A stretch of 26,366 bases of DNA. Source: a virus. Positions 1 through 26,366 of this stretch are shown here, piece after piece (position 1 is the first letter of the stretch; each line of letters starts with the position of its first letter). The notes under the pieces were generated by a model, which had not been told where the DNA came from, did not search any database, and was given only the letters and a program-made list of their open reading frames with translations. The DNA lies in IMG/VR virus record IMGVR_UViG_3300031718_000040, positions 1 through 26,366 of that record, one strand, 5' to 3'. The translations under genes and the position numbers were made by a program.

Positions 1-93
1 ACAACGATACTAGATACAAAAGACACTATATGAGCGGCTGCGCCGTGCGCTTACATCCCCGTCATGAATGACGGGGTTTTTCGCGCAGGTTTG
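1..93 (-). mobile_element. Left end of IS605-type mini-element (copy A), cut by window edge
   Basis: These 93 bases match 20447-20539 (copy C) with no difference that I can see, then the sequences diverge. They hold the tnpA-start remnant, the subterminal hairpin CGGC-TGC-GCCG and the left-end hairpin at 57-76 (stem CCCCGTCA/TGACGGGG, loop TGAA, then T5). The minus-strand flank is TTTAT (plus ATAAA at 94-98), as in the three other copies. The rest of the element lies outside the window. It is inserted in the endolysin gene. Confidence 0.85.
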
Positions 94-10440: not shown

Positions 10441-10710
10441 TTATACCACCTGAACAGTTTTATAAACGCCATTAATGGCCACCATGACTGCATGTTTATT
10501 ACTATCATAGACAAAAGAAGGTAAAGGATTTGCAGTCTGTAGAGTATTTATATCATTGGTAGTTTGTGTAGGAATATTCAATCCTTCTTCCGACAAATTA
10601 TTTTGACATTCGCTGGTAAGTTGAGTAAAAAATCTATACCAAGAATCATGGATTTTCCCATTTTCTGAAATAATGGGAACCTCGGGATGCGGTAAATTAG
10701 GTACATTCAT
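10441..10710 (-). CDS. Small conserved phage protein between gp10-like and ejection genes
   Basis: An 89-aa protein from the ATG at 10710 (MNVPNLPHPEVPII), with a WYRFFTQL segment near residue 25 and a C-terminal YDSNKHAVMVAINGVYKTVQ. Small proteins with this P-x-P, G-x-I-x-x-W-x-x-FF outline are common in podophage head-tail regions, and the slot corresponds to P22 genes 26/14, but I cannot assign either. The start choice matters because mini-element B lies directly upstream. The element tip supplies GGGAGG nine bases before this ATG, and an in-frame extension through the element (from 10755) is open but artificial. Before the insertion, the upstream stop and this ATG would have been adjacent (TGAATG). 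Confidence 0.6.
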   Translation of the reverse strand: MNVPNLPHPEVPIISENGKIHDSWYRFFTQLTSECQNNLSEEGLNIPTQTTNDINTLQTANPLPSFVYDSNKHAVMVAINGVYKTVQVV

Positions 10711-10712
10711 TG

Positions 10713-10779
10713 TTGACATCCTCCCTTCCCCTGCGCTTACCTCCCCGTCATTCATGACGGGGTTTTTCGCGCATCATTG
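10713..10779 (-). mobile_element. 67-bp IS605-type remnant (copy B)
   Basis: The left end (about 50 bases) has the same hairpin as the other copies (10743-10762, stem CCCCGTCA/TGACGGGG, loop TTCA, then T5 and CGCGCA). It is joined directly to the outermost 13 bases of the right end (plus TTGACATCCTCCC). The flank is TTTAT on the minus strand, as elsewhere. The right-end hairpin and both genes are absent, so it is probably no longer mobile and may have shrunk after insertion. It sits exactly between the gp10-like gene and the next gene. Confidence 0.75.
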
Positions 10780-12258
10780 ATAAATATTACCTTCGGCTCC
10801 CGTAATACAAAACCTTTGCTCTCCCCAAAAAGCAAATTTAAGCGTGCAGTCAACATAACTTCCTAAGTTCCAAAAGTTACATATATTTTCTCTTTTTCCT
10901 AATGGATTCATTTTTTTAGAAGCTACATATTTATAGCTTTCCCCTCCATCCCGTGAGGCGGCAATATCAATTCTTGGCCTTCTGATAGGCAACAAAGATA
11001 AACTTGATTTATTTTCATTCTCTAAAATTCCCTGTTCCATTGTGATATTAATATTATTTATCACAAATCTGTCGCCTAACGGAAGCCTAAAAGGTTTTAA
11101 TATCCTAAATCGGGGCGTCTCATGATCTCCTGAAGTATAAATAGTTGAAGAAATTTTATAAATATTTCCGTCATTAAAACTTACAAAATAATAACTACCA
11201 TTAAAAAATGTAATTCTTCTTGCAGGATGATGATTCATGCTTTTATCGGTTAAGGTAAAAAACATCTTTGTATTAAAATCATAAACATAAGTAAGATTAT
11301 CTTTCGTAAATGTAAGCACATAAAATACATGCCCGGCTTCTCTAAACAAGAAACCATAAGAATCTTGAGGTGATTTTAAATTTGAAAATACAAAATCAAG
11401 GCCATCGTTGGAAATTTTTTCAGGAATGCCTCCCGTAGAAGCCATTATTGAAATTCCTGTTTTCTCATTAGATCCTAACCATACCATTAACCCAAATCCA
11501 ACATCTATGGTAGAAGGGCTTATAGTTCCATAATCTATAGTGTAGTAATTTGTTCTTTGATAAGGAAAAAGCGTATATCCAATATCATACCAAGGTTCTG
11601 CAAATGTTTGTCCAAAAACAAATAATTGACGAGCCAAAACTACCGCAGCAACAGCGTTCGTTGATTTTGTCTGTAATTCTCCGATATGTCCACCATCGGA
11701 TGGCCATAAAGTACCGTCATTATTAGCGGACAGTCTCCATCTATTTGTTCTTTTGTCTGTGGCAATAAAGTAAGTATCCTGAAATGTTATATAACCCGGC
11801 AAAAAATCTACTTTAACCTGCACAAAAGTATTATTTTGATAATTAAATATATAAATAGTAAATCCATCACAAATAGCGATTTGTGAGCCCAGATTCTCGG
11901 AAATATAAACATCTCCGCTAAACGTGTTTAAACTTCCCACCAATGTAAAAGATAAATCTGTACTAATAGAAAACACATTATCAGAAACCACCGCTATCAT
12001 TTTATTGTATCGGGTGCTTGTATATATTTCCCTTCCGTTATTTCCAAATAACTTTTTGACGAGAGAATATCCCGGAAAATTTACAAGCGCACCATCCGAA
12101 ACAATCATATTATAAGTTTCTTCGGAAGATATTTTTTTATATCTTCCAAATGAATTACCTCCCACAATATCAAACTTAACCGGCATTCCGATTTCAAATT
12201 GTAATGATTTATTTCCAGAAGATGGACGTCCTGAAGGAGCCTCTATCACGGCGCCCAT
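10774..12258 (-). CDS. P22 gp10-like tail hub / packaged-DNA stabilisation protein
   Basis: A 494-aa protein (P22 gp10 is 472 aa) placed right after the gp4-like gene, as in P22. In that family gp10 forms a hexameric ring below gp4 that plugs the portal after packaging and holds the tailspikes. The sequence is beta-rich with many aromatic and Asn turns (NFPGYSLVK, GREIYTSTRYNKMIAVV, LARQLFVFGQTFAEPWYDIG), typical of the phage stabilisation family. It overlaps the gp4-like gene by 13 bases. The last codons (TAT CAA TGA) cross the TTTAT target into mini-element B. The element's first bases, CAATGA, reproduce what removal of the element would leave, so the C-terminus appears unchanged by the insertion. 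Confidence 0.8.
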   Translation of the reverse strand: MGAVIEAPSGRPSSGNKSLQFEIGMPVKFDIVGGNSFGRYKKISSEETYNMIVSDGALVNFPGYSLVKKLFGNNGREIYTSTRYNKMIAVVSDNVFSISTDLSFTLVGSLNTFSGDVYISENLGSQIAICDGFTIYIFNYQNNTFVQVKVDFLPGYITFQDTYFIATDKRTNRWRLSANNDGTLWPSDGGHIGELQTKSTNAVAAVVLARQLFVFGQTFAEPWYDIGYTLFPYQRTNYYTIDYGTISPSTIDVGFGLMVWLGSNEKTGISIMASTGGIPEKISNDGLDFVFSNLKSPQDSYGFLFREAGHVFYVLTFTKDNLTYVYDFNTKMFFTLTDKSMNHHPARRITFFNGSYYFVSFNDGNIYKISSTIYTSGDHETPRFRILKPFRLPLGDRFVINNINITMEQGILENENKSSLSLLPIRRPRIDIAASRDGGESYKYVASKKMNPLGKRENICNFWNLGSYVDCTLKFAFWGEQRFCITGAEGNIYQ

Positions 12259-19926: not shown

Positions 19927-19997
19927 TCAGCTCTCGCTACTGTCGCCTTCTTGGCGAAGAGAGGAGTAATACTCAAACATATCACTGTGTTCAATGA
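19881..19997 (+). CDS. Possible 38-aa plus-strand peptide
   Basis: ATG at 19881 follows AAAAAAGGAAAGAT, a good ribosome site, and encodes MNKISELKEISSEMAVSS and on to a stop at 19997. It overlaps the 3' end of the Panacea gene on the other strand. The start looks genuine (site plus charged helix), but the second half runs antisense to Panacea codons and may be the remnant of a longer gene. No function can be given. Confidence 0.3.
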   Translation: MNKISELKEISSEMAVSSRYCRLLGEERSNTQTYHCVQ

Positions 19998-20208
19998 CAT
20001 TATTGCCACGTTCATTAGAAGCCAATCCTTGACGGCCTTTCCTCCAAGGTTCCTCCAGATGAGTAAGGTCACTTAGCCATTGAAGATTTTTATCCCCATA
20101 ATATTTTAAAACGTGATCTATAGTGTCTTTTTGCTCATCACTTAAATTTTCAGCATCTCCATAAGCAACCTCATCAGCAGAAATATTATATTTACCACAA
20201 TGATATTC

Positions 20209-20403
20209 TTGACATCCTCCCCCGCCTAAAGTCGGGGGATTCCTACGGCGTTCAAGCAAAAGCAGCCTGACTCACTTCGGCGGGTTCCTGCTTCATCGAG
20301 CGGCCTAACCGCACCATCTCTCCACGGGCTAACACGGCATGCCCTGCCGCTAGTACATTTATTGCGCCGACAACATCTGCGTTGTTGACATAGCCGCATT
20401 CTA
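20209..20403 (-). ncRNA. Predicted guide RNA scaffold retained in mini-element C
   Basis: It corresponds to 21399-21593. The 88 bases nearest the end are identical to copy D, including the hairpin. The adjoining guide would be the Panacea sequence starting GAATATCATTGTGG, which follows TTTAT in the uninterrupted gene. Transcription and function are not shown. Confidence 0.4.
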
Positions 20404-20539
20404 CTCATCGTCCTATTATACTTTATACTTTCGTCTATGGAAACTCACAACGATACTAGATACAAAAGACACTATATGAGCGGCTGCGCCGTGCGCTTAC
20501 ATCCCCGTCATGAATGACGGGGTTTTTCGCGCAGGTTTG
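20209..20539 (-). mobile_element. 331-bp IS605-type mini-element (copy C)
   Basis: Both ends match the complete element at 21399-23155. About 195 bases of right end (with the tnpB 3' end) and 130 bases of left end remain. Internal deletions removed most of tnpB (only a short 5' stub fused to the C-terminal part is left, 20408-20226) and the body of tnpA (METHNDTRY start joined to the 3' end). The divergent tnpB/tnpA start region is kept. The first 88 right-end bases are identical to the complete element; about 11 differences follow. It is inserted after TTTAT (minus strand) in the Panacea gene without target duplication. It needs TnpA in trans. Confidence 0.85.
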
Positions 20540-20849
20540 ATAAAGAGCAGGAACCATGGGCCCATTAATCCACGCTTCGACAGGCTCATCAAATAATGGC
20601 TTTTCATCCCATACGAGTGACCACGCCTGGGAATAATAAACCAGCTTTTGAAGCTTCATGGCTGTCATCTGTTTCTTCTTCTCCAATATGTATTTAGCGA
20701 CATCAAAACAAGAACTCATTGGCAACCTCCTCCTATTTTCAATTAATTATATAACTACCTCCTACCCGCAGCGACCTTGACCTTCCTGCAGATGACTTAA
20801 AGAGACCATAAAGTGGAAGGTAGGGCATGTCTTCGATGCCAGACCGAGC

Positions 20850-21015: not shown

Positions 21016-21170
21016 ATGGCAAAAAAAAAGATATTTTTAAAAAAATCATTAACTTATTGAAACATATGAGATTTTTTTTTCATCGAGGTATTGACAGACT
21101 AAAAAGGGAGGCATATCATACAAAAATAGAACAACATCTTAAACAAAAAATAAACAAAAAAGATCCCTAG
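21016..21170 (+). pseudogene. Small basic-protein ORF broken by a one-base slip in an A9 run
   Basis: ATG at 21016 with AAGGGAGAGCAC upstream gives MAKKKIFLKKSLTY and a stop. With one more A in the A9 run (21021-21029) the frame would read MAKKKKDIFKKIINLLKH and continue through an open frame (ATG at 21066) to TAG at 21170. That gives about 51 Lys/Arg-rich residues. It could be a pseudogene, a sequencing error in the homopolymer or a slippage-controlled gene. It lies on the strand opposite to the phage genes. Function is unknown. Confidence 0.35.
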
Positions 21171-21198
21171 ACGAAAGTATAAAGTATAATAGGACGAT
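21168..21198 (+). repeat. 31-base fragment of the IS tnpA/tnpB start region, inverted relative to copy C
   Basis: It is identical to the reverse complement of 20407-20437, the divergent start region inside mini-element C. It is followed by G9-AGGCAAC, which loosely resembles the right-end tip (GGGGGAGGATGTCAA). It may be the remains of a further element in the opposite orientation. Confidence 0.5.
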
Positions 21199-21398: not shown

Positions 21399-21593
21399 TT
21401 GACATCCTCCCCCGCCTAAAGTCGGGGGATTCCTACGGCGTTCAAGCAAAAGCAGCCTGACTCACTTCGGCGGGTTCCTGCTTCATTGAGCGGTCTGACT
21501 GCACCCTCTCTCCACAGGCTAACACGGCATGTCCTGCCGCGAGTACATTCATTGCGCCGACAACATCTGCGTTGTTCACATAGCCGCATTCCA
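21399..21593 (-). ncRNA. Predicted TnpB guide RNA (omega/reRNA) region of copy D
   Basis: In IS605-type elements the guide RNA spans the tnpB 3' end and the right end, and its guide is the DNA just past the right end. Here the minus strand runs through the last part of tnpB, the GC-rich CCCCCG/CGGGGG hairpin and GGATGTCAA. The guide would then start ACCTCTCGCCATAGTT. The 5' limit is a guess, taken from the part also kept in mini-element C. Confidence 0.5.
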
Positions 21594-22656
21594 CGCAAGC
21601 AAACTGCGCTTGCGTTTGTCTGTTTTCTGCGGCGGCGTGTCTGCAACACGGACAAGTGCGGCTGGTGTTTCTGGGATTGACCGCAACAAAAATGCCGCCG
21701 TTCCAATCCAGCTTGTATTCTAATTGACGACGAAACTCAAACCATCCCTGATCTAAAATCGACCTGTTTAGACCAGATTTTGCCCTGACATTTCGTCCCC
21801 TTGATTCCATCGTGCCTTTCGCCGACCTGGACATATTTCGAACCTGCAAATCTTCTATACATACCATAGCGTGGTTTTTGCTGATATGTGTCGTCGATTT
21901 ATGCAGAAAGTCCCGACGTGCATTTGAAATCTGCGTGTGTATCTTTGAAATCCTCTTTTTCGCTTTAACCCAATTACAACTAAATTTAACTTTTCGCGCT
22001 ATATCCCGTTGAACAAAGGCAAGGCGCGATTGCCTGTTTTTAAAACTGTTTAACGGCGCAATATATTCGCCATTGCTTAACGTCGCAAAACGGGCAATAC
22101 CTACATCAATGCCAACTGCACTCACTGATACAGGCTTCGGTATCTCTACCTCTCTTTCGGTTTGAATAGAGACAAACCATTTTCCATTTTTGCATGATAC
22201 CGTCATATTTTTGATCTCGCCAACTACCTTCTGACTCTGCCGATAACGCATCCATCCAAGCTTTGGCAGATATACGCGGCTGTTTGCCTGTTCCAGTTTA
22301 AAACCTTGCGGAAATCTAAAACTATCGCTAACTCCCTTCTTCTTAAACCGCGGAAAGTCAGCGCGTTTTGCAAAGAAATTTTTAAACCCTGATTCAAGAT
22401 TTTTTAAAGCCTGCTGTAAGGTTTGACTGGGAGAATCCTTAAGCCATTGCATTGCCTTGTCTTCTTTCCATGCAGGCAGCAAATTGGCAAGTCTTGAATA
22501 ACTAAACCTGATAGCATTATCTGTCTTAGGGCTTTCATTTTGATGCGCCAGCGCTTTGTTATACACAAAACGACAAGCGCCCGCAAAACGGCGCATATCC
22601 CGCATTTGTGCGCCATTGGGCATCAGTTCAAATTTAAAGGCTTGTCGTCGTTTCAT
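21442..22656 (-). CDS. tnpB: TnpB, RNA-guided RuvC-type nuclease of the IS605 family
   Basis: A 404-aa protein, the normal size. The start ATG at 22656 gives MKRRQAFKFELMPNGAQ, the usual TnpB opening; 27 upstream codons are open but cross the tnpA start. The catalytic RuvC residues are present: D184 in VGIDVGIARF, E268 in VCIEDLQVRNM and D364 in [10 protein letters not shown]. The zinc finger is C335/C338 (CPCC) and C354/C357 (CVEC). The basic N-terminal domain holds the typical RFAGACRFVYNKAL. Known relatives are guided by an RNA from the element's right end and cut DNA next to a motif equal to the insertion target, here predicted to be TTTAT, which helps the element persist. It reads towards the right end, opposite to tnpA. 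Confidence 0.93.
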   Translation of the reverse strand: MKRRQAFKFELMPNGAQMRDMRRFAGACRFVYNKALAHQNESPKTDNAIRFSYSRLANLLPAWKEDKAMQWLKDSPSQTLQQALKNLESGFKNFFAKRADFPRFKKKGVSDSFRFPQGFKLEQANSRVYLPKLGWMRYRQSQKVVGEIKNMTVSCKNGKWFVSIQTEREVEIPKPVSVSAVGIDVGIARFATLSNGEYIAPLNSFKNRQSRLAFVQRDIARKVKFSCNWVKAKKRISKIHTQISNARRDFLHKSTTHISKNHAMVCIEDLQVRNMSRSAKGTMESRGRNVRAKSGLNRSILDQGWFEFRRQLEYKLDWNGGIFVAVNPRNTSRTCPCCRHAAAENRQTQAQFACVECGYVNNADVVGAMNVLAAGHAVLACGERVQSDRSMKQEPAEVSQAAFA

Positions 22657-22677
22657 TGTTTCATTATACTTTAGTCT

Positions 22678-23094
22678 ATGAAAACAAACAACGATATTAG
22701 ACACGGCAGGCACTGTGTTTTTAATTTGCACGTTCATTTGGTCTTCGTCACAAAATACAGGCGAGGCGTATTTACAAAGTCTGTATTGGATGACTTAAAA
22801 CGCATCTTTTCTAAAATCTGCGAAGACTTTGAAGCAACACTGATTGAATTTGATGGTGAAGACGATCACGTCCATTTTCTGGTAAATTATCCCCCCAAGG
22901 TTGCCGTATCACATCTTGTAAATAGCCTTAAAGGCGTCTCTAGCCGCATGATACGTCAAGCCAAATACCCAGGCATTCAAAAAAAATTATGGGGCAATGC
23001 TCTTTGGTCACCAAGCTATTTCGCCGGCAGTTGTGGCGGCGCGCCCATTTCAATTATCCGTCAATATATTGAACAGCAGAAAACGCCCAATTGA
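22678..23094 (+). CDS. tnpA: TnpA, Y1 HUH transposase of the IS200/IS605 family
   Basis: A 138-aa single-domain transposase that cuts and rejoins single-stranded element ends through hairpin recognition. The HUH motif is H64-V-H66 in EDDHVHFLV, and the nucleophile is Y130 in SIIRQYIEQQ. The order and spacing, with LWGNALWSPSYF between them, are standard. The gene starts 21 bases from tnpB on the opposite strand, so their promoters overlap (TATACT-like bases lie at the junction). It ends just before the subterminal hairpin ACGGC/GCCGT (23095-23107) and the left-end hairpin with T5, which may also terminate its transcript. All catalytic residues are present. Confidence 0.93.
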   Translation: MKTNNDIRHGRHCVFNLHVHLVFVTKYRRGVFTKSVLDDLKRIFSKICEDFEATLIEFDGEDDHVHFLVNYPPKVAVSHLVNSLKGVSSRMIRQAKYPGIQKKLWGNALWSPSYFAGSCGGAPISIIRQYIEQQKTPN

Positions 23095-23118
23095 ACGGCT
23101 TCGCCGTTGCGCTTACAT

Positions 23119-23138
23119 CCCCGTCATGAATGACGGGG
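23119..23138 (+). terminator. Left-end hairpin of copy D, also a terminator-like structure after tnpA
   Basis: A perfect 8-bp stem (CCCCGTCA/TGACGGGG, loop TGAA) followed by TTTTT on the plus strand. Equivalent hairpins are at 57-76, 20503-20522 and 10743-10762. Its main role is TnpA recognition of the left end. Confidence 0.7.
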
Positions 23139-23260
23139 TTTTTCGCGCATGTTTGATAAATTAGAGCAATGGCGAAACCGTCTGAAACCAGAGCAAAATG
23201 AACTACTCCCTCTAAACCGCTAACGCGGCCATTCCTTTCAGAATGAACCATTTGGCGATA

Positions 23261-25466: not shown

Positions 25467-26366
25467 TCATTTTTTGCTTTCAGAAGGTGTTATTTTTGAT
25501 TTTGGGGGTGTAGGTAATGGTTTGGTAGAGGGGTATCCCCCTGAATCGAATGTAGGGGGTTCTGGGGCGATATTTTGAGACATCAGGCTTTGACGTTTCA
25601 CTTCTTCGAGAAAGTCTTTCGTTTCCAGGTGCATCTGCCACATGACATCTTCGACTGAGTCAGTGGGAGGAGGAAGGCCGAGTAAGATGGCTTGTGCTTT
25701 CTTGCAAGAGAGTCGGTTTTTGGCCTTAAGGCGCGCATCTACGGCGTGTAAGGCACTGCGGTAGGGTGGGGTTAAGGGTCGTTTTTTTCCTTTTCTCGCG
25801 TGACAGACCTGTAAGACGCAATTGGCGAAAAAGAGAGGGTTAAAGAAAAAAGTTCCTTGCTGTCGAGCTCGTGACACGGCCTTTTGGATATCTTCCAGGA
25901 TGACGCCTTCGTGTCGCCAAGTTTTCATCATCATCTGAGCTTTTTGGGAAGCCCAGAAAGTCATGATATCTGAGATACCTCTCCAGCAGCCAGGGAGTTC
26001 GGAGACGAAAAAATCCGTTACCTCTTGGCAAAATTTTTTGTTTTCGTTAGGAGATTGATCACTGACAGTTTCTGATGGCATTTCTTTGCTTTCAGAAGGT
26101 GTTATTTTTGATTTTAGGGGTGTAGGTAATGGTTTGGTAGAGGGGTATCCCCCTGAATCGAATGTAGAGGTTTCTGAGGCGATATTTTGAGGTTTTAGGT
26201 TTTTAGGGTCAGGGAGAGAAGCAAGGAGGGGCGAAAAGAGGGTAACTGGCTGAGAAATTTGAGACACACTATATGTAACGTGCGCGCGCGTTGATAGCTC
26301 TTTTAGAGGCGTAGGGTTTTTGGTTTGATAAGATATATTACTTACTTCGTACTTAATACATCTCTT
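25467..26366 (-). CDS. Replication-region protein, 5' end outside the window
   Basis: The frame is open from the stop at 25467 to the window edge with no stop, at least 299 codons, so the true start is probably upstream. A GTG at 26267 is possible but has no ribosome site. The central part (residues of about 75-170 counted from that GTG) is a folded helical domain: FFVSELPGCWRGISDIMTFW, KTWRHEGVILEDIQKAVSRA, FFFNPLFFANCVLQ. It is reminiscent of phage replication-initiation or DnaT/helicase-loader accessory proteins, but I do not recognise a named family. Both ends carry the same 36-residue Pro/Ser/Thr/Lys linker (FDSGGYPSTKPLPTP and KSKITPSESK). It shares four bases (ATGA) with the alternative start of the next gene. 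Confidence 0.5.
   Translation of the reverse strand, partial: KRCIKYEVSNISYQTKNPTPLKELSTRAHVTYSVSQISQPVTLFSPLLASLPDPKNLKPQNIASETSTFDSGGYPSTKPLPTPLKSKITPSESKEMPSETVSDQSPNENKKFCQEVTDFFVSELPGCWRGISDIMTFWASQKAQMMMKTWRHEGVILEDIQKAVSRARQQGTFFFNPLFFANCVLQVCHARKGKKRPLTPPYRSALHAVDARLKAKNRLSCKKAQAILLGLPPPTDSVEDVMWQMHLETKDFLEEVKRQSLMSQNIAPEPPTFDSGGYPSTKPLPTPPKSKITPSESKK
25473..25579. repeat. 107-base direct repeat, copy 1 (3' end of the replication-region gene)
   Basis: It matches 26085-26191 with only a few mismatches. The offset is 612 bases (204 codons), so both copies are read in the same frame and encode the same linker. Confidence 0.85.
26085..26191. repeat. 107-base direct repeat, copy 2
   Basis: Partner of 25473-25579. 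It encodes the N-terminal linker copy (FDSGGYPSTKPLPTP then LKSKITPSESK) of the same protein. Confidence 0.85.

Follow-up and report, generated by a model that had tools for sequence, protein, structure and literature searches.

The stretch of viral DNA analysed here, referred to as the window (26,366 nucleotides), carries on its minus strand a gp10-like head-closure gene, the gene of an 89-aa protein downstream of it and, at the junction of the two, a 67-bp element named copy B. A full IS200/IS605-type insertion sequence (IS), an internally deleted copy of it and a further IS left end are located elsewhere in the window. The first-pass annotation had described a 67-bp insertion at a stop/start junction that damaged neither gene, and this was borne out: the insertion lies immediately after TTTAT and both protein-coding frames around it are intact. 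Read in gene sense, the junction is ...GGTAATATTTAT before the element, CAATGATGCGCG...GGAGGATGTCAA at its two ends and CAATGAATGTACC... after it, the inserted part being 67 bp.

Table 1. Positions of the genes and repeat features discussed, numbered from the first base of the window.
Feature	Position	Strand	Basis or remark
Further IS left end at the window edge	1..93	-	
89-aa gene, downstream of gp10-like	10441..10710	-	48% identical to the same-place gene in L008
Copy B, 67-bp terminal-only derivative of the window's IS200/IS605-type element	10713..10779	-	Comparison with L008 and the full IS
Right-end tip of copy B, GGGAGGATGTCAA; TCAA is the presumed right cleavage site	10713..10725	-	IS608 cleavage-site logic as given in PMC5934647
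GGGAGG, candidate Shine-Dalgarno (SD) sequence of the 89-aa gene	10720..10725	-	Predicted duplex -11.6 kcal/mol
Left-end hairpin of copy B, outer TGCGC/GCGCA stem and inner 8-bp GC-rich stem	10732..10773	-	
Inner stem of the left-end hairpin	10743-10762		
gp10-like head-closure gene (PHROG 578, head closure Hc3), 494 aa	10774..12258	-	
TGA in the copy B tip, present gp10-like stop	10774..10776	-	
Target pentanucleotide TTTAT, immediately 5' of copy B	10780..10784	-	
331-bp internally deleted IS copy, both ends kept	20209..20539	-	Splits a SocA/Panacea-like gene
Full IS200/IS605-type element, 1757 bp	21399..23155	-	
tnpB of the full IS	21442-22737	-	OrfB_IS605 (PF01385) and Cas12f1-like_TNB (PF07282)
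tnpA of the full IS	22678-23094	+	Y1_Tnp, PF01797, 5.4e-45

The tnpA and tnpB genes of the full IS are divergent, and the combination of a Y1 HUH transposase with TnpB places it in the IS200/IS605 family; its tnpA is 83% identical to a Methylomonas plasmid tnpA and its tnpB 67%. IS608 is described in PMC5934647 as being cut by its transposase 3' of a short target, which is kept on the left, and after TCAA on the right, with four-base guides (AAAG left, GAAT right) before each hairpin. As in IS608, subterminal hairpins are present at both ends of the full IS, with the motif GAAT, a presumed guide, before the right hairpin and TCAA at the right tip. TTTAT stands before each of the window's four left ends and also before the related IS in Methylomonas and Shewanella loci and in the H. 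pylori phage SwC388G (annotated IS606), while TTTAC precedes the related IS of Methylophaga. Of the 6 related plasmid IS loci compared, 5 contain the tip sequence GAGGATGTCAA, indicating that the SD-like right-end tip is part of the IS itself. In the stretches examined, the Deferribacter relative (L017) showed neither such a right-end tip nor a recognisable left end, and no left end was seen in the Providencia relative (L016).

Several further features of the IS copies were observed. From the TAT codon of TTTAT, the IS left end can be read as an open frame, and the ORFs 10-366, 20456-20725 and 23054-23251 enter it in the same codon phase, with a tail starting QTCAKNPVIHDGDVSA. The left-end hairpin of the full IS, followed by TTTTT (23108-23149), lies just beyond the stop codon of tnpA and could also serve as its intrinsic terminator. 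The halves of the SocA/Panacea-like gene correspond to ORFs 20456-20725 and 19927-20259, which score against separate parts of the Pfam model. An inner stretch of the 331-bp copy recurs inverted just outside the right end of the full IS, as a 35-nt inverted repeat (20407-20441 and 21164-21198, 97% complementary). A 122-nt direct repeat (25470-25591 and 26082-26203, 92% identical) is located within one ORF at the right end of the window.

Bases 1-48 of copy B match the left ends of the three other copies (at the window left edge and from 20539 and 23155 downwards), with alignments of 54-56 bases at 88-91% identity (E 1e-15 to 2.5e-17), and none of 200 shuffles reached the stability of the stretch folded as DNA (z -4.78); both results argue against a chance repeat. 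The final 13 bases equal the right-end tip of the full IS (21399) and of the 331-bp copy (20209). Alignment to these copies therefore shows copy B to be a hairpin-bearing left end fused to a right-end tip. The right-end hairpin, its GAAT and both transposase genes are absent and, with right hairpin and interior lost, copy B is a terminal-only derivative. GGGGAAGG is absent from the other right ends, which prevents an exact placing of the deletion joint. The hairpin loop (10751-10754) reads TGAA on the minus strand and TTCA, its reverse complement, in the other copies, as if the tip had been flipped. On the plus strand, a consensus scan around copy B found TTTTT after the hairpin, resembling an intrinsic terminator.

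Copy B sits immediately 3' of a fixed short target without target-site duplication, as is characteristic of IS200/IS605 elements; CAATGA does flank it on both sides, imitating a duplication, and under these boundaries one of the two belongs to the left tip. A reading on the plus strand with a TTGAT/TTGAC target (ISDra2-like) was dropped, since the tnpB right end and the relatives place TTTAT on the minus strand. As in a palindrome-associated transposable element (PATE), copy B has a palindrome near its terminus that is related to an IS605-type element, and its length would not fit a transposase; PATEs carry palindromes near both termini, however, and here only the left one is kept. Copy B does not correspond to a classical MITE, its ends not being mutual inverted repeats as printed and the empty-site comparison revealing no duplication, nor to a Rickettsia palindromic element, which adds an in-frame peptide, as the TGA of the tip closes the frame.

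A scan with the gp10-like protein identified a relative, L008, whose gp10-like protein is 79% identical over the full length and which carries the empty site. Its junction reads GGGAATATTTATCAATGAAAACGCC, and the window flanks joined without copy B, GGTAATATTTATCAATGAATGTACC, align to it gap-free; the comparison with uninterrupted relatives that the first-pass annotation had proposed thus revealed the empty site expected of an invading mobile repeat. Could the element have been stitched into the junction from a repeat read during assembly? The window is an IMG/VR-type virus contig whose left edge (1-99) repeats 20447-20545 with all 99 bases the same, and it therefore probably broke at this repeat. 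An assembly artefact at copy B is nevertheless highly improbable: both of its flanks align to L008, and since no other copy in the window has the same sequence, none here could have donated the read.

The joined flanks read TAT CAA TGA ATG, as had been predicted for removal of the element. The prediction that this stop adjoining the next ATG represents the native link was contradicted. The ATG after the TGA sits in another frame (the gp10 frame reads ...YQ-stop-MY), and the 89-aa gene starts at the ATG within cAATGA, in a four-base overlap with the gp10-like stop that the first-pass annotation had missed. A wider gp10-like scan yielded 40 loci, with a readable C-terminus in 33; those in which the match stops short of the C-terminus (L040, L047, L050, L051, L052, L053 and L056) were excluded. 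A 4-base ATGA stop/start overlap was found in 22 of the 33 readable relatives, all 22 among the 26 included in the ribosome-site calculation; the seven distant relatives outside that calculation (L043-L046, L049, L054 and L055) differ at the junction. The next gene starts 12 bases from the stop in L026, 35 in L027 and 2 in both L037 and L038. As near-duplicates occur (L029/L030, L034/L036/L048 and L043-L046), the number of independent relatives is lower than these counts.

The copy B element was present in 0 of the 33 readable relatives, and an ancestral 67-bp spacer, named beforehand as the finding that would speak against an insertion, was rejected. Among 56 loci, the hairpin pattern and the right tip occurred only in window-derived loci, IS relatives and one chance match (L011). 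On the sequences compared, the empty site in L008, the ATGA overlap in relatives and the element in none of them identify copy B as a later insertion and the native link as a coupled ATGA overlap rather than a stop followed by a start. Comparison with the joined flanks further shows that the element entered where the gp10-like gene ends, immediately 3' of TTTAT, and split this conserved 4-base overlap. The claim that the native link was replaced holds to the extent that the overlap was split; the link was a different one, and translation from the new site is predicted.

The gp10-like protein still ends in GNIYQ, as in L008, because copy B starts with CAATGA and, as the first reading had it, recreates the last codon and the stop. 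The 67 bp also convert the -1 overlap into a shared frame, in which the gp10-like and 89-aa genes read ...GNIYQ-stop-CAKNPVMNDGEVSAGEGRMSTMNVPN...; this change had escaped the earlier reading. The tip TGA alone therefore separates the two proteins, and a readthrough fusion, if made, would yield CAKNPVMNDGEV peptides. The three other left ends in the window begin with CAAACA or CAAACC and leave the frame open, indicating that the TGA arose in copy B or its parent. A by-eye count gives 5 differences in 48 positions between copy B and the left end of the full IS, and two of these five create the TGA. The proposal that the repeat brought its own stop and ribosome site thus stands for the SD-like tip, which is the IS's, and fails for the TGA, which is no standing property of the repeat. 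The 89-aa protein had no match elsewhere in the searches, and a DNA search with the gp10-like and 89-aa genes in phages gave no match.

The right-end tip places GGGAGG nine bases before the ATG at 10710, as originally noted, and the predicted anti-Shine-Dalgarno duplex (-11.6 kcal/mol) ends eight bases from this ATG. The corresponding predicted energy was -4.0 for the joined flanks, a median of -5.0 (range +0.4 to -10.7, the -10.7 without any element) for the 22 ATGA relatives and +0.4 to -10.3 for 16 other window genes, making the copy B tip the strongest predicted ribosome site among those compared. At 500 random window positions the median was -2.7 and the 1% level -11.6, so about 1% were equal or better. 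The bases of the site are partly paired in the local fold (unpaired probability 0.11-0.63), and a gain in translation therefore stays a prediction. An ATG at 10719 abuts GGGAGG with zero spacing. The ATG within the hairpin (10755) shares the frame of the 89-aa protein, as reported; a predicted upstream energy of 0.1 kcal/mol amounts to no ribosome site, and this ATG was rejected as an unlikely start.

Copy B is probably a remnant of an IS200/IS605-type (IS606-like) element that was inserted at the ATGA overlap and lost its core, its tips now providing stop and ribosome site. A longer IS copy would have been inserted by TnpA via the usual single-strand route and would then have lost its core; the TGA of the left tip would end the gp10-like protein at its native residue, and GGGAGG of the right end would start the 89-aa protein on its own, changing coupled translation to independent initiation. 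It is unlikely that the 67-bp form is instead a mobile PATE that arrived already short, mobilised in trans by TnpA from the full IS. Copy B does keep both cleavage-site sequences and one hairpin, a full tnpA is present within the same window, and six strain-specific 52-bp terminal-only ISHwa23 insertions reported for Haloquadratum suggest movement of such forms (PMC3119063). However, the right hairpin and the GAAT guide, which are part of the IS608 mechanism outlined in PMC5934647, are gone, and no second 67-bp copy was found: three patterns and an exact one gave 0 in viral_contigs, phages and plasmids contained 0 full-length matches, and the single match in genome_contigs (L011) was rejected as chance, lying in GC-rich surroundings without left-end flanks. 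Insertion followed by core deletion is therefore preferred, while a single known copy is compatible with both routes.

Since the insertion put both genes in one frame with the TGA as sole barrier to a gp10/89-aa fusion, selection for the TGA is plausible. On the sequence differences, the TGA is a better argument for selection than the ribosome site, which comes with the IS and needs no selection. The remnant may have been selected or may alter translation. A fuller version, in which it was co-opted as a translation adaptor that moves ATGA-coupled virion genes to independent initiation while the TGA prevents fusion, or leakily allows a little of it, is rather unlikely. There is a fair, if less than even, case for coincidence, an ordinary insertion and deletion in a decaying prophage or mixed contig with stop and ribosome site unselected. 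The SD-like tip is intrinsic to the IS right end, and an insertion at such a place is not very rare, as 6 of 137 TTTAT sites in 94-20208 (129 of them inside a listed gene) lie no more than 9 bases from a C-terminus, the copy B site included. The same IS also splits the Panacea-like gene and interrupts the left-edge ORF, which may point to relaxed selection in a contig that could be decaying or composed of mixed variants. Against coincidence, two substitutions stop the gp10-like protein exactly where the native one ends, in a frame that would otherwise run on into the next gene, and the neighbouring virion genes are intact. The gp10-like gene, with dN about 0.15 against dS about 1.6 in the comparison with L008, is under long-run purifying selection, although most of this history predates the insertion and says little on the time since.

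Among known elements, the nearest likeness is to the terminal-only PATEs of Haloquadratum walsbyi (HqIRS46, core-deleted ISHwa23, 52 bp), with an IS605-type parent and a lost core. In PMC3119063, IS605-type elements are reported to shrink by core deletion to 52-bp terminal-only forms keeping one palindrome copy, and six copies of one such form suggest possible movement of the short form. Common to these and copy B are one palindrome between outer tips, no target duplication and a transposase-less length. Unlike the H. walsbyi forms as described there, copy B is 67 bp long, phage-borne and a single copy, combines the left palindrome with a right-end tip, and occupies a stop/start junction with a stop and an SD-like site.

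The window IS resembles IS606-like/IS605-group elements of Helicobacter pylori (L057 and L058) in its left end, GCGCGAAAAAC-stem-ATGTAAG, and its divergent tnpA/tnpB; L058 (IS606-like) shares the TTTAT target, and the window tnpA is 65.9% identical to the best H. pylori tnpA, located on a SouthAfrica7 plasmid. Both H. pylori loci are full elements with genes, and their right end is unlike that of the window IS. The Borrelia IS605 stem loops are likewise transposase-less hairpins that reach into gene 3' ends, there of lipoprotein genes (PMC2775950); unlike copy B they comprise one end per site, and a stop/start junction of overlapping genes is not reported in the portion of that paper drawn on here. 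Rickettsia palindromic elements are also short palindromic repeats tolerated in protein-coding sequence, but according to the review PMC10969869 they lengthen the host protein by an in-frame peptide, which the stop of copy B prevents. The literature searched (titles and abstract openings) contained no description of an IS605 remnant on a phage gene overlap. The locus thus offers an aligned before/after case in which an IS605-type remnant breaks a conserved phage gene overlap with neither protein visibly harmed and, if translation from the IS tip is true, an example of mobile-element ends rewiring operon coupling. Compared with these systems, copy B is a mobile-element scar of a known kind, ordinary as a mobile element, and the neat fit is its unusual part.
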